Below, piece by piece: positions 7,722-23,800 of a stretch of DNA of 48,574 bases; the stretch's first letter is position 1; each line of letters opens with the position of its first letter. The position numbers were made by a program, and so were the translations under genes. The notes below the pieces were generated by a model. That model did no database searches and was not told the DNA's origin. It saw only the letters and a list, made by a program, of their open reading frames with translations. Origin of the DNA: Clostridiales bacterium (GTDB lineage: Bacteria; Bacillota; Clostridia; Christensenellales; Pumilibacteraceae); the NCBI GenBank assembly GCA_022508365.1, contig JAFLVH010000005.1:1-48574 (forward strand), given 5' to 3'.

Positions 7722-9497
7722 ATGGTAAAAATAATGGCAAACCAAAACGACAATCAATACAATACAAAGGAAAAAACGCGCCGCACCATGATAGGCGGTC
7801 AGGCGCTGTTGGAGGGCGTCATGATGCGCGGAAAAACATCCGTGGCAATGGCGGTGCGCGCCCCAAGCGGCGAAATAGAGCTCCATACGGAAAGGCTGAA
7901 AAAGCAAAGTAAGGCGGCAAAAATCCCGGTTGTGCGCGGCGTTATTTCCTTTGTCAGCTCGCTCGCCGTCGGCATAAACTCGCTGCTTAAGTCCGCCGAG
8001 GTAAGCGTGCCGGAGGACGAGGCGCCGTCCAAAACCTCCACCGTCATTGCGACGATCATAGGCGTTGTGCTTGCCGTAGGTCTGTTTGTCGGCATTCCGC
8101 TGTTTATAAGCTTTGCAATCCGAAAATGGACTTCGTTTGACAATATCGCCGTAATATCGGTTATAGAGGGCGTGTCGCGCCTGTTGATATTCATCATATA
8201 CCTCGCGCTGATAAGGCTTATGAAGGATATAAAGCGCACGTTTATGTATCACGGCGCCGAGCACCGCACCATCAATTGCTACGAAAAGGGCTTGCCCTTG
8301 ACGGTGGAAAACGTGCAGTCGTGCTCCACCAAGCACAACCGCTGCGGCACTACGTTTATATTCTTTGTCGTGGTGTTTGCAATACTAATCTATGCGCTGC
8401 TCAACTGGGTGTTTTCGCTGTTTACCGGCTACGAGTATCTTTTTGAAAACTTCTTTTTTAAGCTTTTGATCAGACTTGCGCTTTTGCCGCTTATAGCCGG
8501 GCTTTCTTACGAGCTGCTCAGAGGCCTTGCGCTGCTTCCCGACAACAAGTTTACCGACGTAATTCGCGCGCCCGGATTGGCGCTTCAAAAGCTGTCTACG
8601 TGCATACCCGACGACGACATGGCGGAGGTGGCTATAGCCGCGTTCAACGCCGTGCTCGAGCTGGATTCTCAGCCTAACAAGGGCACTATGGATTTTTACG
8701 AGCGCGACTTTGCCGTCGAGCGCAAAAAGCTTGCGGATAGGCTGCCCGACAATCCTCAGGACGCCGACTGGATATATTGCGAGATTTTGGGCAAGTCTCG
8801 CGGCGAGCTCGGCGGTGTGGAAAAAATAAAAATCGGTCAGGTCAAACAGGCAAACAAATATGCGGACAGACTGCTTGCGGGCGAGCCGCTCGGCTACGTC
8901 TTAGGCAACGCCGAGTTCTGCGGAATAAAGCTCAAGGTGGACAATCGCGTGCTTATTCCGCGGTTTGAGACGGAGGTGCTTGCCGAGGAAGCGGTTAAGC
9001 TGGTGTCAGGCAGAGACAAGGCGCGCGTACTCGATATGTGCACGGGATCCGGTTGTATCGCCGCCGTAATCGCCAAAAACACCGCGGCGCAAGTGGTTGC
9101 CGCCGACGTGTCTGACGAGGCGTTGGAGGTTGCCAAAGCAAACCTAAGCGGCTTGGGCGCGGAGGTTGTCAAGTCCGACATGTTCGAGGGTATTGATGGC
9201 AAGTTTGACCTAATCGTATGCAATCCGCCGTACATACGCAGTGCGGAAATCGAGGGTCTGGAAAAAGAGGTAACTTGTCAGCCGCATATCGCGCTTGACG
9301 GCGGCGAGGACGGACTCAAGTTTTATCGCGTACTTGCGGACAAAGCAGGTGAATATTTAACCGACGGCGGCGCGATAATGATGGAAGTAGGATATGATCA
9401 GGCGCAAGACGTGATTAACCTATTCAAAAAAATCGGCAAAAGCCGAATAATAAAGGATTTAGACGGAAAGGACAGGATAGTGATATGCGAGAAATGA
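7722..9497 (+). CDS. prmC: Fusion: DUF1385 (YqhQ-like) membrane protein + PrmC release-factor glutamine methyltransferase
   Basis: One 591-residue frame holding two complete proteins. Residues 1-312 are DUF1385/YqhQ: IGGQALLEGVMMRG near the start, several membrane segments, MYHGAEHRTINCYEKG, STKHNRCGTTF, and the usual C-terminus DDDMAEVAIAAFNAVL. Residues about 325-591 are PrmC: the N-terminal helical part, GEPLGYVLGNAEF, the SAM-binding VLDMCTGSGC (from 436) and the catalytic NPPY at 501-504, which methylates the GGQ glutamine of release factors. The join is clean, with no stop or lost domain. ATG codon 323 has AAGGG nearby, so a separate PrmC could also be made. Starts at 7722 or 7734 lack a clear ribosome site. 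prfA, its substrate, overlaps the end. Confidence 0.9.
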   Translation: MVKIMANQNDNQYNTKEKTRRTMIGGQALLEGVMMRGKTSVAMAVRAPSGEIELHTERLKKQSKAAKIPVVRGVISFVSSLAVGINSLLKSAEVSVPEDEAPSKTSTVIATIIGVVLAVGLFVGIPLFISFAIRKWTSFDNIAVISVIEGVSRLLIFIIYLALIRLMKDIKRTFMYHGAEHRTINCYEKGLPLTVENVQSCSTKHNRCGTTFIFFVVVFAILIYALLNWVFSLFTGYEYLFENFFFKLLIRLALLPLIAGLSYELLRGLALLPDNKFTDVIRAPGLALQKLSTCIPDDDMAEVAIAAFNAVLELDSQPNKGTMDFYERDFAVERKKLADRLPDNPQDADWIYCEILGKSRGELGGVEKIKIGQVKQANKYADRLLAGEPLGYVLGNAEFCGIKLKVDNRVLIPRFETEVLAEEAVKLVSGRDKARVLDMCTGSGCIAAVIAKNTAAQVVAADVSDEALEVAKANLSGLGAEVVKSDMFEGIDGKFDLIVCNPPYIRSAEIEGLEKEVTCQPHIALDGGEDGLKFYRVLADKAGEYLTDGGAIMMEVGYDQAQDVINLFKKIGKSRIIKDLDGKDRIVICEK

Positions 9498-10564
9498 AGA
9501 CTGACAAGCTTGACGCTATAGTCGAGCGGTTTAACGCATTAGACCTCAAGATACAAGACCCGAGCATAATCTCCGACAACAAGCTGTGGGCGGAGCTTTG
9601 CCGTGAGCGCAGCGAGTTAGAGCCGATTGTGGAAAAGTACGGCGAGCTTAAAAAGGCAAAGGCGGATTACCGTGACGCACTGGAAATGCAAAAATCGGAC
9701 GATGCGGAAATGGTGCTGCTCGCCAAAGAGGAGTGCGAGACGCTTACGGAGAGCATAGAGCGCATCACCGAGGAGCTCAAGATAATGCTGCTGCCCAAGG
9801 ACCCCAACGACGGAAAGAACGCTGTACTGGAGATAAGACCTGCGGCAGGCGGCGAGGAGGCGGCGCTGTTTGCGGCGGAGCTCAGTAGAATGTACCGCAT
9901 GTTTGCCGAGCGCAGAAGGTGGAGCGTGGAGGACATATCCATCAACCAGACCGAGCTCGGCGGTATAAAGGAAGCGGTGTTCGGCATAAGCGGCAAGGAC
10001 GTCTTTTCTCAGCTCAAGTTTGAAAGCGGCGTGCACCGCGTTCAGCGCGTGCCCGTGACGGAAACGCAAGGGCGCGTTCACACCTCGACTGTGACGGTGG
10101 CGGTGCTTCCCGAGACCGAAACGGTGGACGTGGAAATATTGGAAAAGGACATAAAGATAGATACGTTCAGAGCAAGCGGCGCGGGCGGTCAGCACATTAA
10201 CAAGACTGACTCGGCTATTCGCATTACGCACTTCCCGACGGGGATAGTGGTAACGTGCCAGGACCAGCGCAGCCAGACCAAAAACAAGGAGCGCGCTTTT
10301 CAGGTGCTTGCTACCAAGCTGTACGACTATTATCAAGGACAAAAAGACGAGGAGTACGCGTCATTGCGCAAGGGTCAGGTGGGTACCGGCGACAGAAGCG
10401 AGCGCATACGCACGTACAACTTTCCGCAGGGGCGAGTTACCGACCACCGTATTAGCTACACCATTTATTCCATAGACGAGTTTATGAACGGCGACCTCGA
10501 CAAGATGATAGAAGCATTGCGCATCGCCGACCAAACGCGCAAGCTTGAGGGCGACACGGATTAG
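9485..10564 (+). CDS. prfA: Peptide chain release factor 1
   Basis: 359 residues, full length. It reads UAA and UAG in the ribosomal A site through the anticodon-like P-x-T motif (here PVT, in RVPVTETQGRVHTST) and triggers peptide release with GGQ (SGAGGQHINKTDSA). The N-terminal domain is the usual helical one. The ATG at 9485 overlaps the end of the prmC fusion and has AGGATAGTGAT upstream; an ATG at 9494, overlapping the prmC stop as ATGA, is an alternative. Co-location with its own methyltransferase is the classic order and supports the PrmC call. Confidence 0.97.
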   Translation: MREMKTDKLDAIVERFNALDLKIQDPSIISDNKLWAELCRERSELEPIVEKYGELKKAKADYRDALEMQKSDDAEMVLLAKEECETLTESIERITEELKIMLLPKDPNDGKNAVLEIRPAAGGEEAALFAAELSRMYRMFAERRRWSVEDISINQTELGGIKEAVFGISGKDVFSQLKFESGVHRVQRVPVTETQGRVHTSTVTVAVLPETETVDVEILEKDIKIDTFRASGAGGQHINKTDSAIRITHFPTGIVVTCQDQRSQTKNKERAFQVLATKLYDYYQGQKDEEYASLRKGQVGTGDRSERIRTYNFPQGRVTDHRISYTIYSIDEFMNGDLDKMIEALRIADQTRKLEGDTD

Positions 10565-12368: not shown

Positions 12369-12513
12369 AATGCCGCCTCCCATTTCAAAAACCGAATACT
12401 AATTGCCGTAAGAGTATTTATATTCAATATTATAACACAGTGCATGAAAAAAGTCGACAAAAATTACCGATTTTTTCGCGTGGAATTAGGTGGGTGAGTA
12501 TTACTTTTTTTTG

Positions 12514-12542
12514 TTGCTTTTCGGCCTAAAATATGGTAGAAT
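12514..12542 (+). promoter_or_regulatory. Promoter of the TIR-like gene
   Basis: TTGCTT (12514-12519), 17-bp spacer, TAGAAT (12537-12542). The predicted start near 12549 rules out upstream start codons and supports the ATG at 12574. Confidence 0.55.
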
Positions 12543-12573
12543 GTTACAAAATGCTGCTGTTGCGGGGCGGACC

Positions 12574-13857
12574 ATGATAGAAAATGTTTTTATAGCTTGG
12601 AGCGGCAATAAAGAGCTTGCGGATGAATTGGCAAAAATCTTTAATGCCAACGGAGATATGAAGCCCGTCGTAGGCGGCGGATTGCCTGTGGATACTTTTA
12701 TCGGTGCGCAGGTATTGGATCAAATAAATCGCTGCAATTGGGCGATTCTGTTGGTGGAAGACAAGAACGGAGCGGTCAGTCCCAATTTGATGTTTGAATG
12801 GGGATATATTATGGCAAGGCAGTCTGCCAAAAATGTCCACGCTTTTTTAATAAACAAATCCCCACGAGACTTGCCGAGCGACCTATTGGGATCGTGGGCG
12901 ACTAAAATAGATTTTGACAGAAACAAAGATGATTTGACGGACGTTGCCAAAAGTATTTATGACATATTCAAAGAAAATACCAAACACAAGAAAAGCAGAA
13001 TCTATTTCGATTTAATCAGCAATTGGAAAAACGTTTACGTCTATTTAACGGACGATTTGCCCGATACCAATCAAGAAATATGCGAATACATATTATCGGG
13101 CTGTTTGGCGGCATATTACTATCACGACAATCGCGTATTCAGGCATCTTTTAAGCGGTCTTACCGTTTCGGAAGAACTGAACTCAATGCTTCTTTTTGCA
13201 AAAGCTTACGTCGACGTTTTTTTGAATAGCGATAATATGACTAAGCCGCTAACACATGAAGAATTTTTTAAGCTAATGCATATATTTGATTCTACCATCA
13301 ACAGAAAACATAATTTATCCGAAGAATTGGATTTGTTTTTGGATATTTTATGTTACGATGTTTATGGGTTGGCTTGTTCGTTATATCTTAGAAATACCGA
13401 CATTGACAATACAATAAGAAGTCACTGTTCTCAAAAGGCAAAGGATTGTTATGAAAAGGACATACAATTGATAGAAGCTTTTGAAGAAAAGTCGCCTGCG
13501 AATATTTGCCTTGTGGCTTTACTAAAAAGTTATATATATAACGACATGTGCCATTTGTGCAGAGATTCTTTTTCCGATATGGACTCGTTTTTGCGCTATT
13601 TGGCAATTGCCGTGGACGAGAGAAAAAAGCTGTGGCAGACGTTTATGGCACACTATCCAAGCAACACATACCTGGCAACCAAGCTGGAACAAGAGTATAT
13701 GATAGCGTTAAGCGAACAATGTCGGTACATGGAAGATTCCTTTATGAAAACAATGTACAAAACAACTATAATCGCTAAATATCAAGAATGGGAAAAGGAA
13801 CTGTTTTACACCAGCTCGTTAACCAATAGAATCAAAAAGAATATCGATTTATTTTGA
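12574..13857 (+). CDS. TIR-like domain protein with long helical C-terminus (defence candidate)
   Basis: 427 residues. Residues 1-130 look like a TIR / predicted nucleotide-binding fold: VFIAWSGN opening strand, a central QVLDQINRCNWAILLVEDK strand, then SPNLMFEWGYIMAR, whose Glu75 lies where the catalytic Glu of TIR NADases sits, and a closing LPSDLLGSW. Residues 140-427 are helical, AT-rich and unrecognised. Bacterial TIR proteins often destroy NAD+ in anti-phage systems, but no Thoeris, CBASS or Pycsar partner lies beside it. The ATG at 12574 follows GCGGGGCGGACC. The gene is clearly more AT-rich than its neighbours and sits in an accessory patch next to repeats and a tRNA, suggesting horizontal origin. 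Confidence 0.65.
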   Translation: MIENVFIAWSGNKELADELAKIFNANGDMKPVVGGGLPVDTFIGAQVLDQINRCNWAILLVEDKNGAVSPNLMFEWGYIMARQSAKNVHAFLINKSPRDLPSDLLGSWATKIDFDRNKDDLTDVAKSIYDIFKENTKHKKSRIYFDLISNWKNVYVYLTDDLPDTNQEICEYILSGCLAAYYYHDNRVFRHLLSGLTVSEELNSMLLFAKAYVDVFLNSDNMTKPLTHEEFFKLMHIFDSTINRKHNLSEELDLFLDILCYDVYGLACSLYLRNTDIDNTIRSHCSQKAKDCYEKDIQLIEAFEEKSPANICLVALLKSYIYNDMCHLCRDSFSDMDSFLRYLAIAVDERKKLWQTFMAHYPSNTYLATKLEQEYMIALSEQCRYMEDSFMKTMYKTTIIAKYQEWEKELFYTSSLTNRIKKNIDLF

Positions 13858-14873: not shown

Positions 14874-14891
14874 TTATTTTTGCGGTTTATT

Positions 14892-15458
14892 ATGAACGAG
14901 CTGAAGGACAAAAAAATATTGTTGCACGCCTGTTGCGGACCGTGCAGCCTGGGCGCGATAGAGCCGCTGCTTGATGACGGCGCGGATATAACGTTGTTCT
15001 TTTATAATCCCTGCATAATAGACGGGGAGTTCGAGCGCCGCCTTGAAGCGCTTACGACGGTTGCCGAGCACTATAATCTTCCGCTTGTCGTTCCGCCGCA
15101 TGACTATTCTTTTTTTACTTCCTACGCGCAGGATTATGCAACTGCGCAAGAGGGCGGAGCGCGGTGTTCACTTTGCATGGACGATCGCCTGAAAGCTTCC
15201 GCCAAATATGCTGGCGAAAACGGATTCGACTTTTACACTACCACGTTGACTGTAAGTCCGCACAAAAACAGCAAGCTTATTTTTTCGCTTGCGGAATGCA
15301 TAAAATCCGACGCGCCGTTTTTGCCGCGCGACTTTAAAAAGCGCGACGGATTTTTGCTGTCCACTCGGCGCGCAAAAGAGCTTGGCATATACAGGCAGAA
15401 CTTTTGCGGATGCGAGTATTCTTTTAACAATGCAGCTCGGCGCGATGGAGGAGTGTAA
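14892..15458 (+). CDS. queH: Epoxyqueuosine reductase QueH
   Basis: 188 residues from the ATG at 14892; a TTG four codons earlier is less likely. QueH (formerly DUF208) reduces epoxyqueuosine to queuosine in tRNA using an iron-sulfur cluster and replaces QueG in many anaerobes. Cysteine motifs: ACCGPCS (14, 15, 18), RCSLCMDDRL and NFCGCEYS. It begins 18 nt after dtd and ends 2 nt before uvrC-HAD, so it is part of the same transcript. No other queuosine genes are in the window. Confidence 0.9.
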   Translation: MNELKDKKILLHACCGPCSLGAIEPLLDDGADITLFFYNPCIIDGEFERRLEALTTVAEHYNLPLVVPPHDYSFFTSYAQDYATAQEGGARCSLCMDDRLKASAKYAGENGFDFYTTTLTVSPHKNSKLIFSLAECIKSDAPFLPRDFKKRDGFLLSTRRAKELGIYRQNFCGCEYSFNNAARRDGGV

Positions 15459-15460
15459 AT

Positions 15461-18130
15461 ATGGGCTTAGCAGATAAGCTTAAAGATCTTCCCGACACCC
15501 CGGGCGTATACATCATGCGAGATATAACCGGACAGGTGATTTACGTGGGCAAGGCGGTGGTGCTTAAAAACCGCGTGCGCCAGTACTTTCAGCATACCGA
15601 AAAACCTGTCAAGGTGCAGGCGATGGTGGATAACATCGCCGATTTCGATTACATCATTACGCGCACGGAAAAGGACGCGCTCGCGCTCGAGAACAACCTC
15701 ATAAAAAAGTACAAGCCGCACTACAACATTCTTTTAAAGGATGATAAGACCAGTCCCTACATTCGCATCGATCCGCGCGCCGAATATCCGACAGTCGAGA
15801 TAACTAGGCGAGTCAAGCGTGACGGCGCAAGATATTTCGGTCCGTTTATAGGCGTGTCGGTCCGAGACGTCATAAGCATTTTGCAATCGGTATACAAGCT
15901 TCGCACGTGCAAGACCCTCAATAAGCGCGCGCGGCCGTGTCTGAACTACGACATAGATTTGTGCCTTGCGCCGTGCTGTGAGCGCTGTGACGAGGGCGAA
16001 TACCGCCGAGCGATAAACGGCGCCATGTCATTCCTTTCGGGCGGTGGAGAGGATATTTCGGGCATTATAATGCAAAAGATGACGGACGCCGCCGAAAAGG
16101 AGAACTTTGAGCGTGCAATTTCCTACCGAAATCAGCTGCACGTGTTGGAGAACTTAAAGAGCAAGGTTGTAGGCGAGCTTGGCAGCGTGCTGAACATTGA
16201 CGCGTTCTACTACACTGACAATGGCATATACGGCGCGGTCAGTGTTTGCATAGTGCGCGGCGGAAAAATGATGGGCGTAAAAAATTATATCATAAACGAG
16301 CCGGTTTTGTTCGGCGGAGATATGACCACATTCCTGCCGCAGTACTATTCCATGACAAACGAATTGCCTGACGAGATATGCCTGCAGGGCGAGTGCGACA
16401 CCGCCGCGCTAACCGAGTACTTCGATTCGGTGTTCGGCAAGCGTCCTGTTATTTCGTTTCCGCAAAAGGCAATGCGCAAAAAGCTGTTGGACACGGCTAA
16501 GCGCAACTGTGAGGACTTTTTGCTTAAAAGCGCGGACAGGGTAAAGCGCGACGAGGACATGACGGTGGGCGCGTGCGAGCGGCTTAAATCTGTGTTTGGA
16601 TTAAAGAGCGCGCGGCGCATAGAGTGCTACGACATATCCAATATTTCTGGCACGGACAACGTCGCGTCCGGCGTGGTGTTTATAGACGGCAAGGCGGACA
16701 AAGCCCAGTATCGCCGCTATCGCATACGCACGGTAGACGGAGCGGACGATTTTAGGTCAATGTACGAAACGCTGTCGCGACGGCTGTTGCGCTATAAAAA
16801 CGGCGACACTGGCTTTGACGAGCTTCCCGACCTAATCGTCATAGACGGCGGACTCGAGCAGGTGGAGTTTGCCTCGCGCGCGGCGGACGACATGGGGATA
16901 TCTGTGCCCATGGTCGGGCTTGCCAAAAAGGACGAGGAGCTTTATCTCCGCGGCAATCCAGTGCCGATTAAATTAAAGCGCGACGACTACGGATTAAGGC
17001 TGTTGCAGCGCGTCCGTGACGAGGCGCACAGATTTGCCGTTTTGTACCACCGCACCGTCAGATCCAAGCGTTACGAGAGCGAGCTAAACGGCATAAGCGG
17101 CGTTGGATCCGCGACCGTAAAAAAAGTGCTTGCCGCATTTAACACTCGCACAATAGCCACCGCTACGGCGGAGGAAATCGCACAAAAGGCAGGCATAACA
17201 AAAAACGCCGCGCAAAACATTTTCGATTATTATCACCCGAAAGAGGTGGGGGTTACTGCTTTGAAATACAGACTTATTGCCGCCGATATGGACGGAACGC
17301 TATTAAACGACGAGCTGACCGTATCAAAGGCGAACATCGAGGCTATAAACAAATTCCGCGCGGCGGGCGGCATTTTTACGCTGGCTACCGGCAGAGCTCC
17401 GTGCGGCGCAAAAAATTATGTTAAGATGCTCGGGCTTGACGACACGCACGTAAATATATTGTGCAATATCGGCGGCACGATTGCGGACAGCGTAACGTTT
17501 AAGCCGGTCAAGGTGTTTGCCATGCAAAAGAATGTGGTGTCCGACCTTGTGAGCTTTCTTTCCGAAAACACGCGGCTTGTCATGGCGTATGATGACGACG
17601 GACTTAAGATCAACAAAAGATCGGACCTTTCGGATATGTACTGCAATACCGTGGGAATAGACTTCGAGGAAAAAAGCGAGCTTAGTAAGTACGTAATGGG
17701 TGAGAACGTCAACATCGCCAAAGTTATGGCGATACTTGACGAAAGAAATTTGGATTCCGTAATGCAGTCGCTGTCGGAAAAATTTCCGTCGCTTCAATGT
17801 ATGCAGTCCACCGCTCCGTTTTTGCTGACGTTAAAGCACGAGGGCGAGGACTTTATGCCGGCAATGGTGGAGTGCGTGCCTTGCGGTGTAGACAAGGGCG
17901 AGGGGCTAAAGTTCATTGCCGATTGCTACGGCATACCGATGTCGGAGGTTATGGCGTTTGGCGACAGCTACAACGACATAGCTATGATAAAGGCAGCCGG
18001 ACTGGGCGTCGCGATGGGCAATGCCAAGGACAAGGTGAAGGAAGCCTCCGATTACGTGACTGACACCAACAACAATGACGGCGTTGCAAAAGCCATATAT
18101 AAATTTTGTTTTGATCGAGGGGAGGAATAA
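15461..18130 (+). CDS. uvrC: Fusion: excinuclease UvrC + Cof-type HAD phosphatase
   Basis: 889 residues in one frame. Residues 1-597 are a complete UvrC: GIY-YIG nuclease (GVYIMRD...VIYVGKA), four cysteines (150, 160, 168, 172) matching the UvrC iron-sulfur motif, a UVR motif (about 205-240), the RNase H-like second nuclease (ECYDISNISGTD) and tandem helix-hairpin-helix ending IFDYYHPKE, the normal UvrC terminus. Residues 601-889 are a complete Cof-like HAD phosphatase: DMDGTLL, ATGRAP, GDSYNDIAMI. No stop separates them. Codon 601 is TTG preceded by GAGGTGGGGG, so a free HAD protein could also start there. hprK follows at 3 nt. Confidence 0.9.
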   Translation: MGLADKLKDLPDTPGVYIMRDITGQVIYVGKAVVLKNRVRQYFQHTEKPVKVQAMVDNIADFDYIITRTEKDALALENNLIKKYKPHYNILLKDDKTSPYIRIDPRAEYPTVEITRRVKRDGARYFGPFIGVSVRDVISILQSVYKLRTCKTLNKRARPCLNYDIDLCLAPCCERCDEGEYRRAINGAMSFLSGGGEDISGIIMQKMTDAAEKENFERAISYRNQLHVLENLKSKVVGELGSVLNIDAFYYTDNGIYGAVSVCIVRGGKMMGVKNYIINEPVLFGGDMTTFLPQYYSMTNELPDEICLQGECDTAALTEYFDSVFGKRPVISFPQKAMRKKLLDTAKRNCEDFLLKSADRVKRDEDMTVGACERLKSVFGLKSARRIECYDISNISGTDNVASGVVFIDGKADKAQYRRYRIRTVDGADDFRSMYETLSRRLLRYKNGDTGFDELPDLIVIDGGLEQVEFASRAADDMGISVPMVGLAKKDEELYLRGNPVPIKLKRDDYGLRLLQRVRDEAHRFAVLYHRTVRSKRYESELNGISGVGSATVKKVLAAFNTRTIATATAEEIAQKAGITKNAAQNIFDYYHPKEVGVTALKYRLIAADMDGTLLNDELTVSKANIEAINKFRAAGGIFTLATGRAPCGAKNYVKMLGLDDTHVNILCNIGGTIADSVTFKPVKVFAMQKNVVSDLVSFLSENTRLVMAYDDDGLKINKRSDLSDMYCNTVGIDFEEKSELSKYVMGENVNIAKVMAILDERNLDSVMQSLSEKFPSLQCMQSTAPFLLTLKHEGEDFMPAMVECVPCGVDKGEGLKFIADCYGIPMSEVMAFGDSYNDIAMIKAAGLGVAMGNAKDKVKEASDYVTDTNNNDGVAKAIYKFCFDRGEE
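17242..17263 (+). promoter_or_regulatory. Internal ribosome site and TTG codon at the UvrC-HAD junction
   Basis: GAGGTG (17243-17248, within GAGGTGGGGG) lies 12 nt before an in-frame TTG (17261-17263) that would start the HAD part with KYRLIAADMDGT, where free-standing family members normally begin. Confidence 0.4.
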
Positions 18131-18133
18131 ACT

Positions 18134-19159
18134 ATGCCTAAAAAACGCACGGGAGCGCCGAATAAGCAGGAAACCACGCATGTGGCGGAAGAACCGCAGG
18201 CGACCGATAAGGTAGAATTGCCGCCCGAAGAGGAGCAGCAAACCGAACGGGACGTGGACATAAACGAGTTTGCCGCGCGCATGGAACTTGATATAATCCA
18301 CCGCGGCGATAATGAAGTTTTGCATTTTTGTACGTACAACATAAGCCGACCGGGTTTACAGCTTGCCGGATACTATAAGCACTTTGCGGCGGAGCGCGTG
18401 CAGATTATGGGCGAAATGGAAATGACGTACCTGCAGCAGATGACGCACGACGCAAGAAAGACGGCGTGCGAAACGCTGATGAAACAGCCCATTCCCTGTC
18501 TTATTGTAACATCCACGCTGCCGCCGTGCGACGAGCTTATCACCGCAGGACAAAAGTATAATCGCGTCCTCTTAAGCTCTAAGCTGCGCACTACGCCTTT
18601 TGTAAACAAGCTGTCGCTGTATCTCAGCGAGCTATTGGCGCCGTCAAAGACAATTCACGGCGTGCTAATGGACTTGTACGGCGTGGGTGTGCTATTGATA
18701 GGCGAGTCGGGCATTGGAAAAAGCGAAACGGCGCTGTCGCTTATCGAGCGCGGACACAGGCTTGTCGCGGACGACGCGGTTACTATTTCGCGGATAGGCG
18801 AGCGGCTGGACGGAACGTGCCCGGACATAATCAGATACTTTATGGAAGTGCGCGGCATAGGCATAATCGACATAAAGGCCATGTACGGCGCGAGTGCGGT
18901 CCAGCTTGTTAAGACCATTGACATGGTTGTTAAGCTAGAGGCGTGGGACGACAAAGCAAGATATACAAGGCTGGGCGAGCCGGATGAGACCTATACCATA
19001 CTCGGCGTCAAAAAGCCGTTGCATGTGGTGCCTGTAAAGCCCGGGCGTAACCTTGCCGTAATACTGGAGGCCGCGGCGCGCACTCACCGTCTTAACGACC
19101 TCGGCTTCAGCGCGATGGACGAGCTAAACGAGCGTCTCAGAGGAAACAAGAAAAATTAA
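18134..19159 (+). CDS. hprK: HPr kinase/phosphorylase with acidic N-terminal extension
   Basis: 341 residues. HprK phosphorylates Ser46 of HPr (and reverses this) to set carbon catabolite repression in Gram-positive bacteria. The kinase P-loop is GESGIGKS (190-197), followed by LVADDAV and the C-terminal signature GRNLAVILEAAARTHR. The usual protein begins near DINEFAARMELDII, so about 42 extra residues, rich in Glu, Pro and Thr, precede the family start here. GGGAGGAATAAACT before the ATG makes this start firm. It is last in the dtd-queH-uvrC-hprK run and ends at a shared terminator. No HPr gene is nearby. Confidence 0.95.
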   Translation: MPKKRTGAPNKQETTHVAEEPQATDKVELPPEEEQQTERDVDINEFAARMELDIIHRGDNEVLHFCTYNISRPGLQLAGYYKHFAAERVQIMGEMEMTYLQQMTHDARKTACETLMKQPIPCLIVTSTLPPCDELITAGQKYNRVLLSSKLRTTPFVNKLSLYLSELLAPSKTIHGVLMDLYGVGVLLIGESGIGKSETALSLIERGHRLVADDAVTISRIGERLDGTCPDIIRYFMEVRGIGIIDIKAMYGASAVQLVKTIDMVVKLEAWDDKARYTRLGEPDETYTILGVKKPLHVVPVKPGRNLAVILEAAARTHRLNDLGFSAMDELNERLRGNKKN

Positions 19160-19181
19160 AAATGCAGAATTAAGAATTATA
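19160..19181 (+). repeat. AT-rich post-stop element, copy 2 (after hprK)
   Basis: AAATGCAGAATTAAGAATTA begins immediately after the hprK stop codon. The following 80 bp are AT-rich with repeated AGATAATAGATAA words. Confidence 0.55.
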
Positions 19182-19269
19182 AATAAGAATGAGATTTTTA
19201 ACGACGCGCTTCGCCATTTACATTTAATGAATTTAGATAATAGATAAGAAATAAGAGATAATAGATAAT

Positions 19270-19297
19270 AAAAGGTGGTTCAACCGAACCACCTTTT
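19270..19297. terminator. Bidirectional terminator between hprK and the lipid-kinase gene
   Basis: Perfect 12-bp stem AAAAGGTGGTTC (19270-19281), AACC loop, GAACCACCTTTT (19286-19297). Confidence 0.85.
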
Positions 19298-19320
19298 ATT
19301 CTGCATTTTTAATTCTGCAT
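19298..19320 (-). repeat. AT-rich post-stop element, copy 3 (after the lipid-kinase gene)
   Basis: On the sense strand ATGCAGAATTAAAAATGCAG begins directly after the stop codon at 19321-19323, running into the terminator. Confidence 0.55.
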
Positions 19321-20181
19321 TTAACTTTCGCTGTTTGCGAAGGTCTTAAGTCCGCCTTTCACGATATGCGCGTCGAAGTCGAGGTCGTAGTAGATTTCGC
19401 CGTCTAGCTCTATCGGGGCGGAGGTTTTTACCTTTATGCTTTCGCACACGATATGGTGGGTGTACGGCTTGCCCATATGCTTGCCCTTGACAAACTTGGG
19501 CATGATGAGAAGCGTGGGGGTGCGCTTGGGCTTGGTCATTATAATAACGTCCATTTTTCCGTCGTCCGCGCGGCTTACGGGGGAGAGCTTGATGCCGCCG
19601 CCAAACTGCGTGCCGTTGCACACGCCCAGCATAATGCAGTCGTATTCCTTTGTTTCGCCGTTTATTTCCGCCTCCACATGATAAGGCTTAAAGTGCAAAA
19701 GACAGCGCAGCAACGACGCGGTGTAAGTAAGCTTGTTGTGGCTTTTTGCGGTCTTTAGCAGCACGTCTACGTCCATGCCCGTGCCGCCTACGTTAATACA
19801 ACGTTTGTCGCCGACCTGAATATAGTCTAAGTCTCTCTCTTCGCCGCGCACAATGTTTTCTATCGCTTTTACGGGGTCAAGGCTTGTCACGCCCGTGCCG
19901 GTTGCAAAGTCGTTGCCGCGCCCCGCCGGAATAAAGCCCAACCGCGATTTTTCAAAGTCTATGCCGTTTAGCACCTCGTGAAACGTGCCGTCGCCGCCGA
20001 GCGCCACTATCACGGGCGAGCCGGCGGCGGAAAGCTCCTCTGCCAGTTGTTTGCCGTGCCCGGTGCGTTCGGTTATATGCACGTTGTAAGGTATACCGTG
20101 TTCGTCAAGATATTTTGTTGCGGCATTAAGGCACCTTTCGCCGTTGCCCTTGCCGCTTAGCTTGTTTGCTATAATATCCAC
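19321..20181 (-). CDS. Diacylglycerol kinase-like lipid kinase (DAGK catalytic domain)
   Basis: 286 residues. It has the DAGK/YegS fold: VDIIANKLSGKGNG at the N-terminus, VIVALGGDGTFHEVLNG (the GGDGT nucleotide motif), FIPAGRGNDFA and a C-terminal sandwich domain ending SAPIELDGE. In Gram-positives such enzymes (DgkB) recycle diacylglycerol from lipoteichoic acid synthesis; YegS-like members phosphorylate other lipids, so the substrate is open. The start is taken as GTG at 20181, where AAAGGAG lies just upstream and the family N-terminus begins; 42 further upstream codons in frame have no ribosome site and overlap the Fic-like gene. Operon with that gene (10-nt gap). Confidence 0.88.
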   Translation of the reverse strand: MDIIANKLSGKGNGERCLNAATKYLDEHGIPYNVHITERTGHGKQLAEELSAAGSPVIVALGGDGTFHEVLNGIDFEKSRLGFIPAGRGNDFATGTGVTSLDPVKAIENIVRGEERDLDYIQVGDKRCINVGGTGMDVDVLLKTAKSHNKLTYTASLLRCLLHFKPYHVEAEINGETKEYDCIMLGVCNGTQFGGGIKLSPVSRADDGKMDVIIMTKPKRTPTLLIMPKFVKGKHMGKPYTHHIVCESIKVKTSAPIELDGEIYYDLDFDAHIVKGGLKTFANSES

Positions 20182-20191
20182 GTCTTCTCCT

Positions 20192-21112
20192 TTAGTCTTC
20201 GCCGTCGTCGAGCGGTTTGATGAGCTCGGCGAGCTGTTCGTTAAGCTTGGAAATTTTTTGTTGAAGTCTGACGGCTCGGCGTATTCTGTCGCTATCGGTC
20301 GCGTCACTTTGCCGCTTTGTTTCCTTTGCGGCAGGTCTTGAAGAACGCACAGGGCGATACAAGTCCTTTGCCGCCTCGCGCCTTGTTCTCGGTGCGGCGG
20401 TCTCCCCGTCTTTTACCGTCTTGTGATCGTACGACAAACAGTCCACAAACATGGTAAACAGCGGCGTCACGTCATCTGTGGTAAAAGCCTTTTGTTCGGC
20501 AGACTTTATGACTGACGGTGCGGTGCGGTGATAGCCGAGAGAGAACCCCTTCATCTTGCAAAACATTAAAATAAATATGCGGACGGTAAACTCCGAGCAA
20601 TATTCAAAGGGGTGCAGGATGATTAGCTCGCGCATATAATGTGAAAGATACCCGGCAAAATCGTCCTTGGCGGTGATAGGCGAGGGCTCGATGCCGTTCA
20701 TTTTGGTTATTATCGATTTGACAGATCCGGGTATGTATTTGGGGTCGGTGTGCGCGTTTCCGTCCGTTTCCGCGTCGACGGTGCGCAGCCTCCCTGCGTC
20801 GTCGTGAATATCGCCTGCAATGCTCCTGTGCAACATATTCATTGAGACGGCGGTCGCAGGGTCGGGCAGACCCTTTTCCACGGCCTTTAGCGCGCGGAAA
20901 AAGTATATTAGCTTACACAATCTGTCGTAGGACGCACCCTTGTCCTGGGCGCGGGCGTGCTTGATCTTGGGCGCGAGGTACTTTTCCATATCCAGCTTTC
21001 CGAGCAGCATAAGTAGTCCGTCCGTTTCGGCGGAGGACGGCAGCTTGTAGCCGTCTGCCGAAATGGCAACCTTAACCGCGCGAAGTATTCTGTTCGCCTC
21101 GTACAATTCCAT
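20192..21112 (-). CDS. Fic-fold protein with degenerate catalytic motif
   Basis: 306 residues from the ATG at 21112. The middle follows the Fic layout: an LHRSIAGDIHDDAGRLR segment (compare 'LH..l......aG.yR'), helices, then ELIILHPFEYCSEFTVRIFI at about 161-180. Canonical Fic enzymes carry HPFxxGNGRxxR; here His167, Pro, Phe and the last Arg remain but G-N-G-R reads C-S-E-F, so ATP-phosphate binding for AMP transfer should be lost. The C-terminus (from about 235) is basic and ends in a coiled-coil stretch (LQQKISKLNEQLAELIKPL). It may be a pseudo-Fic or use another substrate. Probably leaderless; the lipid kinase gene follows in the operon. Confidence 0.6.
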   Translation of the reverse strand: MELYEANRILRAVKVAISADGYKLPSSAETDGLLMLLGKLDMEKYLAPKIKHARAQDKGASYDRLCKLIYFFRALKAVEKGLPDPATAVSMNMLHRSIAGDIHDDAGRLRTVDAETDGNAHTDPKYIPGSVKSIITKMNGIEPSPITAKDDFAGYLSHYMRELIILHPFEYCSEFTVRIFILMFCKMKGFSLGYHRTAPSVIKSAEQKAFTTDDVTPLFTMFVDCLSYDHKTVKDGETAAPRTRREAAKDLYRPVRSSRPAAKETKRQSDATDSDRIRRAVRLQQKISKLNEQLAELIKPLDDGED

Positions 21113-21119
21113 ACCTAAT

Positions 21120-21148
21120 ATTATAACATGCCGTAGCAAATTTTGCAA
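21120..21148 (-). promoter_or_regulatory. Near-leaderless promoter of the Fic-like gene
   Basis: Minus strand TTGCAA (21143-21148), 17-bp spacer, TATAAT (21120-21125), then 7 nt to the ATG at 21112. Confidence 0.6.
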
Positions 21149-21246
21149 TGTTTTGTAAAAAAAATGTAGTTTATGTAAAATTTTAAATTTGTCCCGTATT
21201 TGTCTCACCAAACTATTGAAAAATCTTTTAAAACGGAGTAAAATAT

Positions 21247-22062
21247 ATGCGTAACACTTTAAAAAGCTTTACAACGTTCGGCATAGGCGGTCCGGCAAAG
21301 CGCATAGAAACTGCCGCGTCGCGCTCCGCCCTAATAGACTTGTCCGCCGAAGGTACGGTGCTTGGAAGAGGATCCAACATTCTGGCGTCCGACAGCGGCG
21401 TGGACGGCGTGATAGTAATCAACCGTTTTGAAAGGGTGTTGCGCTCGGGCAACTACGTTTACGCGGGGTCGGGCACAAGGCTAAGCGTCCTTTGCGGCGC
21501 GCTTTGTGAGCTCGGTCTATCCGGCATGGAGTGGGCGATAGGCATTCCGGGAACGGTGGGCGGCGCAGTCAGGATGAACGCAGGCGCGTTTCTCGGTTGC
21601 ATGTCGGACGTGGTGGAGCATGTCGAGATCGTGCGCGAGCATCGGGTAATGACGCTAAATAAATCGGAGATCGGGTTTGGATACAGGACTAGCGGCTTAC
21701 TCCCCGGCGACACGGTGATAGGCGCAACGTTTAAGCTAACTCCGGACAGCCCGATTGCCGTCAGGCGGCGGTGCGATAGATACAACGTTTTGCGCAAAAA
21801 CAGTCAGCCTGTCGGTAGGAGCGCAGGCTCTGTCTTTAAGAATCCGCCGCACGTATCCGTTGGCAAAATTCTGGACGAGGCAGGGCTCAAGGGTCTTAGG
21901 CGCGGCGGTGCGGTCATATCCGACAAGCACGCCAATATAATTGTCAACACTGGCGGAGCGACTGCGAAGGACGTATGCGCGCTGATAGAAGTGATGCGCG
22001 GCGTGCTTGAAGACAACGGCGTAGCGGCGCAAGAGGAAATCATTTATTTGGGAGATTTTTAA
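21247..22062 (+). CDS. murB: UDP-N-acetylenolpyruvoylglucosamine reductase
   Basis: 271 residues. MurB reduces UDP-GlcNAc-enolpyruvate to UDP-MurNAc with NADPH and FAD in cytoplasmic peptidoglycan synthesis. FAD-binding GRGSNIL and GIPGTVGGAVRMNAGAF are present, as are the catalytic Arg (FGYRTSG), Ser195 (GSVFKNP) and Glu (QEEIIYLG). It is compact even for the shorter type II form: the N-terminus starts at the family's SFTTFGIGGPA. An ACGGAG ribosome site precedes the ATG. It opens a forward operon with PHP, whiA and dnaE. Confidence 0.96.
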   Translation: MRNTLKSFTTFGIGGPAKRIETAASRSALIDLSAEGTVLGRGSNILASDSGVDGVIVINRFERVLRSGNYVYAGSGTRLSVLCGALCELGLSGMEWAIGIPGTVGGAVRMNAGAFLGCMSDVVEHVEIVREHRVMTLNKSEIGFGYRTSGLLPGDTVIGATFKLTPDSPIAVRRRCDRYNVLRKNSQPVGRSAGSVFKNPPHVSVGKILDEAGLKGLRRGGAVISDKHANIIVNTGGATAKDVCALIEVMRGVLEDNGVAAQEEIIYLGDF

Positions 22063-22896
22063 ATGGCGTTTTTGGGCGATTATCACACCCATACACATTA
22101 CAGCAGGCGTGGAGCTAAGCTTCACGCCGTGGGCAGTGTGCTGGAAAACGCGCTTGCGGCACAAAAGGCGGGGCTTAAGGAATTGGCGATAACCGACCAC
22201 GGATACTGTCATTATTACGGCATTGACGGCGCCGCCGCTATGGACAAGCTTAAAACCGACTGCAAAAGCGCCGAGCAGATCACCGGCGTCAAGATTTACA
22301 TGGGGCTTGAAAACAACCTCGATCCGCGCAGCGGAAAGGACGAAACGCTCCCGGCGCTTATGGAGTGCACGAGAGAAACGCTTGAAAAAATCGAAATTGT
22401 GCAGGGCGGATACCACGCGATGGTGGGTTTGCCCACAATGCTCAAGAATCTGATGTTTTGGACGCGGAACGTAATTTTTAAATTTTTGCCCGGGCGAAAA
22501 AAGCTTATCTGCCGCAACACGGCGGCGTACAAGCGCGCCATAGACGAGTATCCGATAGACTTTATCGGACACCTAAACCGCGGCATAATGGCTGATGCGG
22601 TGGAGGTGGCTAAGTATGCGCACAGTAAAGGCGTATATATAGAGCTCAACGGCAGGCATAAAAGTCTGTCCAAAAAGCAGATTAAGCAAATGGTGGAAGC
22701 CGGCGTGGAATTCATCTGCAATTCGGACGCGCACAATCCGGATTCCGTGGGAACTTTTCCGCTTGCCGAAAAGATGATTAAAAAGTATCATATTCCGTAC
22801 GGCCTCATTGCCAACTGGGATAGGCTCCCGGATTTCCGTTCGCAAAACTTTGTTAATGCTCGCGAAAACAATAACGGGGGAAAGACAAATGGCTAA
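22063..22896 (+). CDS. PHP-domain phosphoesterase
   Basis: 277 residues. The PHP metal motifs are clear: DYHTHTHYS at residue 6, ITDHGYCHYYG near 44, GLENNL, GHLNRG, and NSDAHNPDSVG near the end. Such proteins are metal-dependent phosphoesterases, some acting as histidinol phosphatases or nucleotide/oligonucleotide phosphatases; the substrate is unknown here. The ATG directly follows the murB stop with GGGAG just upstream, and its end overlaps the whiA start by 8 nt, so all three are translationally coupled. In many Clostridia rapZ and yvcK lie in this interval; they are absent here. Confidence 0.88.
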   Translation: MAFLGDYHTHTHYSRRGAKLHAVGSVLENALAAQKAGLKELAITDHGYCHYYGIDGAAAMDKLKTDCKSAEQITGVKIYMGLENNLDPRSGKDETLPALMECTRETLEKIEIVQGGYHAMVGLPTMLKNLMFWTRNVIFKFLPGRKKLICRNTAAYKRAIDEYPIDFIGHLNRGIMADAVEVAKYAHSKGVYIELNGRHKSLSKKQIKQMVEAGVEFICNSDAHNPDSVGTFPLAEKMIKKYHIPYGLIANWDRLPDFRSQNFVNARENNNGGKTNG

Positions 22897-23800
22897 CATG
22901 AGCGGATTGGAGATAAAGCGCGAAATAACCAAGGCCAACCCTCGCGGCGCGGAGTGCCGTGCGATGCTGTCCGGCTTTGTGCGCTCGTGCATGTCGCTGT
23001 CTGTTACCAAGAAGGACGGCGTGCAGCTAATACTCGATTGTCAGACCGATTTTGTGCGTGATTACATAGCCGTTGCTATGAAAAATATGCTTGACGTCTC
23101 ATCGGCGGATAGCTCCGAGCTTGTGTATGCCAATCCCGAAAGCTTGCTTGCGGGACTTGACATAACGGTAAAGGGCGGAGGCTACGAAATCGCCGGTATA
23201 CCCAATATGACAGAGGAAAACGAGTCGGCATACATTCGCGGCGTGTTTTTGGGCTGCGGCAGCTTTTCCGCGCATTACTCGGACGGCACGGACGGGCATA
23301 GGGGCGGCTATCATCTGGAATTTTCTGTGCTTAGCGAGAGCTTTGCGGACGAGCTAATAGACCTACTTAAAAGCCGCGAGGTGGTTATGCACAAGATGGA
23401 GCGTGCGGACAAGTATGTCGTGTACGCCAAGGATATAGAAAACATAAGCAACTGCTTGGCGCTTATGCGGCTGGGACGGCAGGTGGTCAAGCTAAATGAC
23501 ACTGCAGCGGCGCTTTCCATGCGGCGCGACGCAAACCGCAGAGCCAACTGCGACGACGCCAACACGACCAGGACGGCAAATGCCGCGGTGGACGTAATCA
23601 ACGCGATACAGCTAATACAAAGCACTGTAGGGCTTGACACTCTTCCGCCCAAGCTGGTCGAGGCGGCGGACGCGCGACTGAACTCGCCCGAGGCGACGCT
23701 TTCGGATTTGGCTTTTGAGCTGGGCATATCCAAGTCCGGGCTCAAGCACAGGTTTGACAAAATAATAGAGATATCGGGACAATTGGCAAAAAACAATTAA
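22889..23800 (+). CDS. whiA: WhiA, DNA-binding division/sporulation regulator
   Basis: 303 residues. The N-terminal half is the LAGLIDADG-homing-endonuclease-like fold without nuclease function (ESAYIRGVFLGCGSFS, KMERADKYVVYAKD); the C-terminal helix-turn-helix has LSDLAFELGISKSGLKHRF. WhiA controls sporulation genes in Streptomyces and affects division and chromosome segregation in Bacillus. The ATG at 22889 overlaps the PHP gene and follows GGGGGAAAGACAA; an earlier in-frame start inside PHP is not supported. dnaE starts 15 nt after its end. Confidence 0.95.
   Translation: MANMSGLEIKREITKANPRGAECRAMLSGFVRSCMSLSVTKKDGVQLILDCQTDFVRDYIAVAMKNMLDVSSADSSELVYANPESLLAGLDITVKGGGYEIAGIPNMTEENESAYIRGVFLGCGSFSAHYSDGTDGHRGGYHLEFSVLSESFADELIDLLKSREVVMHKMERADKYVVYAKDIENISNCLALMRLGRQVVKLNDTAAALSMRRDANRRANCDDANTTRTANAAVDVINAIQLIQSTVGLDTLPPKLVEAADARLNSPEATLSDLAFELGISKSGLKHRFDKIIEISGQLAKNN

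Follow-up and report, generated by a model that had tools for sequence, protein, structure and literature searches.

The analyzed window, a stretch of 48,574 nucleotides from a Clostridiales bacterium, contains one open frame of 889 codons in which, as a preliminary description of this DNA had claimed, a UvrC is fused in frame to a Cof-type HAD phosphatase. The open frame and the full-length family matches bear this out, and they equally confirm that both families are complete and that nothing is lost at the join, which falls on residues 593–601 (Pfam, NCBIfam). The coordinates of the fused gene, its domains, and its immediate neighbors are compiled in Table 1.

Table 1. Features of the fused uvrC-HAD gene and of the adjoining genes, in positions of the window.
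Feature	Position	Strand	Remarks
queH	14880..15458	+	Pfam; directly upstream, 2 nt from the uvrC start
uvrC-HAD fused gene, 889 codons	15461..18130	+	ATG start, single open frame; fused in 20/20 genus members
GIY-YIG nuclease domain, residues 15–89	15503..15727	+	Pfam PF01541
UVR (UvrB-binding) motif, residues 205–231	16073..16153	+	Pfam PF02151
UvrC RNase H-type endonuclease domain, residues 378–527	16592..17041	+	Pfam PF08459
UvrC C-terminal HhH DNA-binding region, residues 540–587	17078..17221	+	Pfam PF14520 (HHH_5)
Linker, residues 593–601 (~9 residues)	17237..17263	+	Variable in genus; disordered in model
GAGGTG, Shine-Dalgarno-like	17243..17248	+	Probably left over from the ribosome site of the formerly free gene
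TTG codon 601, candidate internal start	17261..17263	+	ATG in 10 congeners, TTA in sister species
Cof-type HAD-IIB phosphatase domain, residues 605–879	17273..18097	+	TIGR00099, PF08282
hprK, HPr kinase/phosphorylase, next operon gene	18134..19159	+	Pfam; same order in relatives

According to Pfam and NCBIfam, residues 1–592 of the window protein constitute a complete UvrC, the NCBIfam model TIGR00194 matching residues 4–572 over model positions 2–574 of 574 with 507.7 bits (cut-off 285). The HhH region is recognized by PF14520 with 27.8 bits at a cut-off of 27.0. In the genus alignment the GIY-YIG residues Y17, Y28, G30, R38, E77, and N89 are kept in conserved columns, and the triad D391, D462, H523, whose register matches 3c65, 2nrt, and 8b0q, is likewise conserved within the genus. 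The second half is covered by the Cof model TIGR00099 (residues 605–879, model positions 1–256 of 256, 170.9 bits at a cut-off of 137) as well as by the entire Hydrolase_3 profile PF08282 (residues 606–879, positions 1–255 of 255). All four HAD motifs are present (DMDGT at 609–613 with D609/D611, T643, K812, and GDSYND at 834–839 with D835/D839), the catalytic motifs being intact in all genus species covered by the alignment. Structural comparison by Foldseek gave target-normalised TM values of 0.85–0.90 against Cof/YidA-type phosphatases, and of 0.87–0.90 against 1nf2, 3niw, and 4dwo; the closest solved HADs are sugar-phosphate or general phosphatases (YidA, BT4131, PfHAD1). The assignment of catalytic residues in both halves follows established knowledge of these families. 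Based on family membership and conservation, UvrC and HAD phosphatase activities are the ones expected of the two halves.

Compared with known systems, the protein shares all domains, the catalytic residues, the UVR motif, and the C-terminal HhH with an orthodox UvrC (TIGR00194) at normal length, but carries directly after the HhH a C-terminal HAD of 290 residues that orthodox UvrC lacks. With the Cof-type HAD-IIB phosphatases (TIGR00099; YidA 1rkq, TM0651 1nf2, BT4131 1ymq) it has the full-length match, the four motifs, and TM values up to 0.90 in common, differing in the attachment to UvrC. A GIY-YIG repair nuclease within a multidomain protein is also found in Cho and mycobacterial exonuclease-Cho-type proteins (NF005906 DEDD exonuclease); there, however, the partner is an N-terminal DNA exonuclease, whereas here a complete UvrC bears a small-molecule phosphatase C-terminally. 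In the part of a 2006 survey of the GIY-YIG superfamily considered here, a HAD partner is not mentioned (PMC1564403). The open-licence papers searched yielded no UvrC-HAD fusion; in the same literature, the genus Anaerocaecibacter is named in a review of new taxa. The fusion mechanism is ordinary; the domain architecture is apparently undescribed.

The window holds a second pair of families in one frame, DUF1385 (residues 68–313) joined to the PrmC release-factor methyltransferase at 7722–9497, beside prfA (9485–10564). This fusion is apparently much older, since many families of the order have it, the two genes staying apart in others. A protein of 455 aa (12490–13857), encoded between rtcB and the tRNA-Val/dtd genes, combines a CAP12/Pycsar-type TIR domain (PF10137, residues 32–140) with a C-terminal part lacking a family assignment and represents a possible defence effector; PADLOC returned no match for it. 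The region 18134–23800 comprises hprK, a diacylglycerol-kinase-type gene on the opposite strand, murB, a PHP-domain gene, and whiA. In Firmicutes, rapZ and yvcK usually lie between hprK and whiA; neither was seen among the identified frames of this region.

Homologues of the join were searched in related genomes, a check already proposed in the preliminary description, which had named separate genes in all close relatives as the outcome speaking against it. Instead, the in-frame fusion without stop recurs in 20 of 20 species analyzed from the Anaerocaecibacter muris genus of gut Clostridia, and separate genes occur only in other genera. The fused members come from 20 separate assemblies and share 68–86% identity with the window protein. 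Among them is the cultured isolate A. muris CLA-AA-M11 (locus L046, the same gene as L012), whose contig record gives 456x coverage; in two further loci (L020, L021) the UvrC half is cut by contig ends with the join still being spanned. All indels in the linker are whole codons and in frame. Although the window genome is a draft of 81 contigs, which might raise the suspicion of an assembly artefact or a missed stop or frameshift at the join, recurrence in 20 assemblies at this divergence, one of them the deeply covered isolate contig, together with the frame-keeping indels leaves this explanation a negligible probability. Since the frame is stop-free in all 20 genus members, chance or assembly error is excluded.

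Both halves are maintained. Nei-Gojobori (NG86) dN/dS ratios from nine pairs ranged from 0.006 to 0.09 for UvrC and from 0.03 to 0.21 for the HAD, reaching up to about 1.2 in the linker, which indicates purifying selection on both halves and not on the linker. The HAD half evolves faster than the UvrC half, with a mean pairwise identity in the genus of 56% compared with 78–90% for the UvrC regions, and 32% for the linker. In the structure model both halves are confident, residues 593–599 have a pLDDT below 50, and the pTM is 0.39; owing to this pTM value and the disordered linker, a fixed docking of the halves is not predicted.

The family was covered with 74 genomes from 18 genera, 54 of these genomes belonging to the 17 genera outside the fused one. 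A stop-free match spanning both halves was found in none of these 54 genomes, each locus inspected among them having separate genes, and direct inspection of about 50 uvrC loci elsewhere revealed no in-frame fusion. When the 20 fused and seven unfused family members were placed in one tree, a branch supported at 100/100 set the fused proteins apart; the fused species being one clade, we conclude on a single origin of the fusion. Outside the genus, uvrC is followed by a Cof HAD gene and often then by hprK as separate genes, an arrangement common among the matches listed for samples of the order, class, and phylum (248, 291, and 398 genomes). At these loci uvrC and the HAD frequently share a reading frame that is interrupted by at least one stop, a frequency that is not a population estimate because the loci were partly selected by an in-frame HAD match. 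In the sister genus g10 (L022: HKTID*TCKRCYTCDMRYKL; L156), one in-frame stop alone separates the uvrC and HAD frames, and the intergenic stretch is about equal in length to the present linker. At 46 of 46 loci the neighboring HAD resembles the fused HAD more than it does either of the two other full-length Cof HADs of the window genome, which makes it most likely that fused domain and operon neighbor are orthologues.

Several candidates for fusions in other taxa were rejected upon inspection of their loci. Those from elsewhere in the order (G043, G079, G161, G186, G195, G249, G256, G041, G147), all suggested by reported open frames of 920–956 aa, have stops between the genes; those from the phylum (G670, G796, G625, G868, and others) and from the family (G949, G021, G963, G941, G957) are separate genes. 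Frame lengths of 900–1058 aa given by the genome search for unfused genes appear to run through stops and are unfit for calling fusions. At one locus of another family genus (L154; G021, contig 117, ~1–723, reversed strand), UvrC runs into a lysine-rich tail and stops shortly past the RNase H domain, with the HhH region apparently absent and the HAD directly next; loss of the HhH or a faulty contig may be the cause.

The preliminary description had further proposed that the TTG at codon 601, with GAGGTG upstream, may give a free phosphatase. Both elements are present and the Shine-Dalgarno (SD) sequence is strong, the anti-SD duplex at the window join amounting to −10.8 kcal/mol and exceeding those at the gene's 28 other in-frame ATGs. 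The free product itself is doubtful, as GAGGTG and TTG are 13–14 nt apart compared with 3–10 nt (median 5) at 33 native uvrC and hprK starts of the same genomes, and as the sister species (L003) has TTA at this codon. At the join, ATG is found in 10 of 20 species and a few codons upstream in four, the window having TTG; the five species without ATG are L003, L010, L012 (A. muris), L018, and L019, with L003 and L019 showing in-frame TTG or GTG codons and a weak SD. A nested in-frame gene, yielding the fusion plus a free phosphatase of ~32 kDa from a start at the join, would account for the ATG located at most six codons upstream of the HAD core in 14 of 20 species, for the anti-SD duplex ranking among the top 0–5% of the gene's in-frame ATGs in most of them, and for the native-like spacing of 6–8 nt in L014, L015, and L016. 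Retention of the ATG can, however, be a relic, the no-start state requires at least three changes on the tree, and the encoded amino acids together with codon usage suffice to explain how strong the SD is: shuffling of synonymous codons produced an equally strong SD in 57% of cases for the window (p about 0.57), with p between 0.08 and 0.57 across the species having a start at the join. Selection on synonymous codons for the SD is not supported by this result. ATGs in the linker, considered as possibly compensatory, occur outside position −1 at a frequency close to the Met background and were not counted as evidence. Taking a conserved start together with a ribosome site at native spacing as the mark of a nested gene, the window does not show this combination, whereas L014–L016 show the spacing. 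Overall, we regard the nested gene as rather unlikely, though some species, plausibly L014–L016, may produce a free phosphatase in addition. In the simplest reading, the signal at the join would be what is left of the start that the HAD gene once had to itself, eroding in several lineages and perhaps still in use in some. In at least three lineages the HAD motifs persist although the join offers no ATG, an indication that these lineages manage with the fusion by itself.

The explanation that we consider likely is a bifunctional polypeptide that arose by loss of a single stop codon between operon neighbors and is kept as a tolerated tether. The UvrC half would perform both incisions of nucleotide excision repair, while the tethered HAD half would hydrolyse small phosphorylated metabolites. 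At the base of the genus, uvrC would have lost the stop codon that kept it apart from the HAD gene following it in the conserved uvrC-HAD-hprK operon, so that the UvrC tail and the former intergenic sequence became a flexible linker. A possible stop-codon loss had been put forward in the preliminary description, and it is presumably the simplest route to the fusion; in an arrangement such as that of g10, losing one stop would be enough. Considering their conservation, both domains are probably active within the fused protein; the fusion may serve as tolerated tether or as co-expression device, and the tether would be retained since reversal brings no benefit. The preliminary description had also suggested that the fusion could couple repair to nucleotide or sugar-phosphate housekeeping. 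Such a functional coupling, in which the phosphatase would help excision repair, e.g., by removing nucleotides that are damaged or mis-phosphorylated close to where repair takes place, or in which the levels of repair enzyme and phosphatase must match, could draw on guilt by association, the operon neighborhood being conserved across the order and beyond and the fusion being retained in every species of the genus. Yet the operon also carries hprK and other unrelated housekeeping genes, the solved structures nearest to the HAD are phosphatases of general or sugar-phosphate type, and the flexible linker with its low pTM does not indicate docking; coupling therefore appears improbable, and the shared operon with hprK and the adjoining queH is no evidence for it. 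Still more improbable is the extended version in which the HAD would be a working part of excision repair at the HhH end of UvrC, acting on phosphorylated products or nucleotide pools, with a free phosphatase in some species in addition. The tolerated tether is preferred because nothing was found that links the repair and phosphatase reactions.

The UvrC-HAD fusion is a real, if probably modest, evolutionary curiosity, cooperation of the two activities not yet being indicated; a functional link, if true, would connect nucleotide excision repair with metabolite phosphatases. For the genus, it means that the end of UvrC beside the DNA-binding HhH tolerates a large folded enzyme in all its species. 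A fusion of operon neighbors is caught here while sister genera keep the genes apart, in one genus by no more than a single stop codon, and the erosion of the internal start in several lineages makes it a natural case for how separate genes become one.
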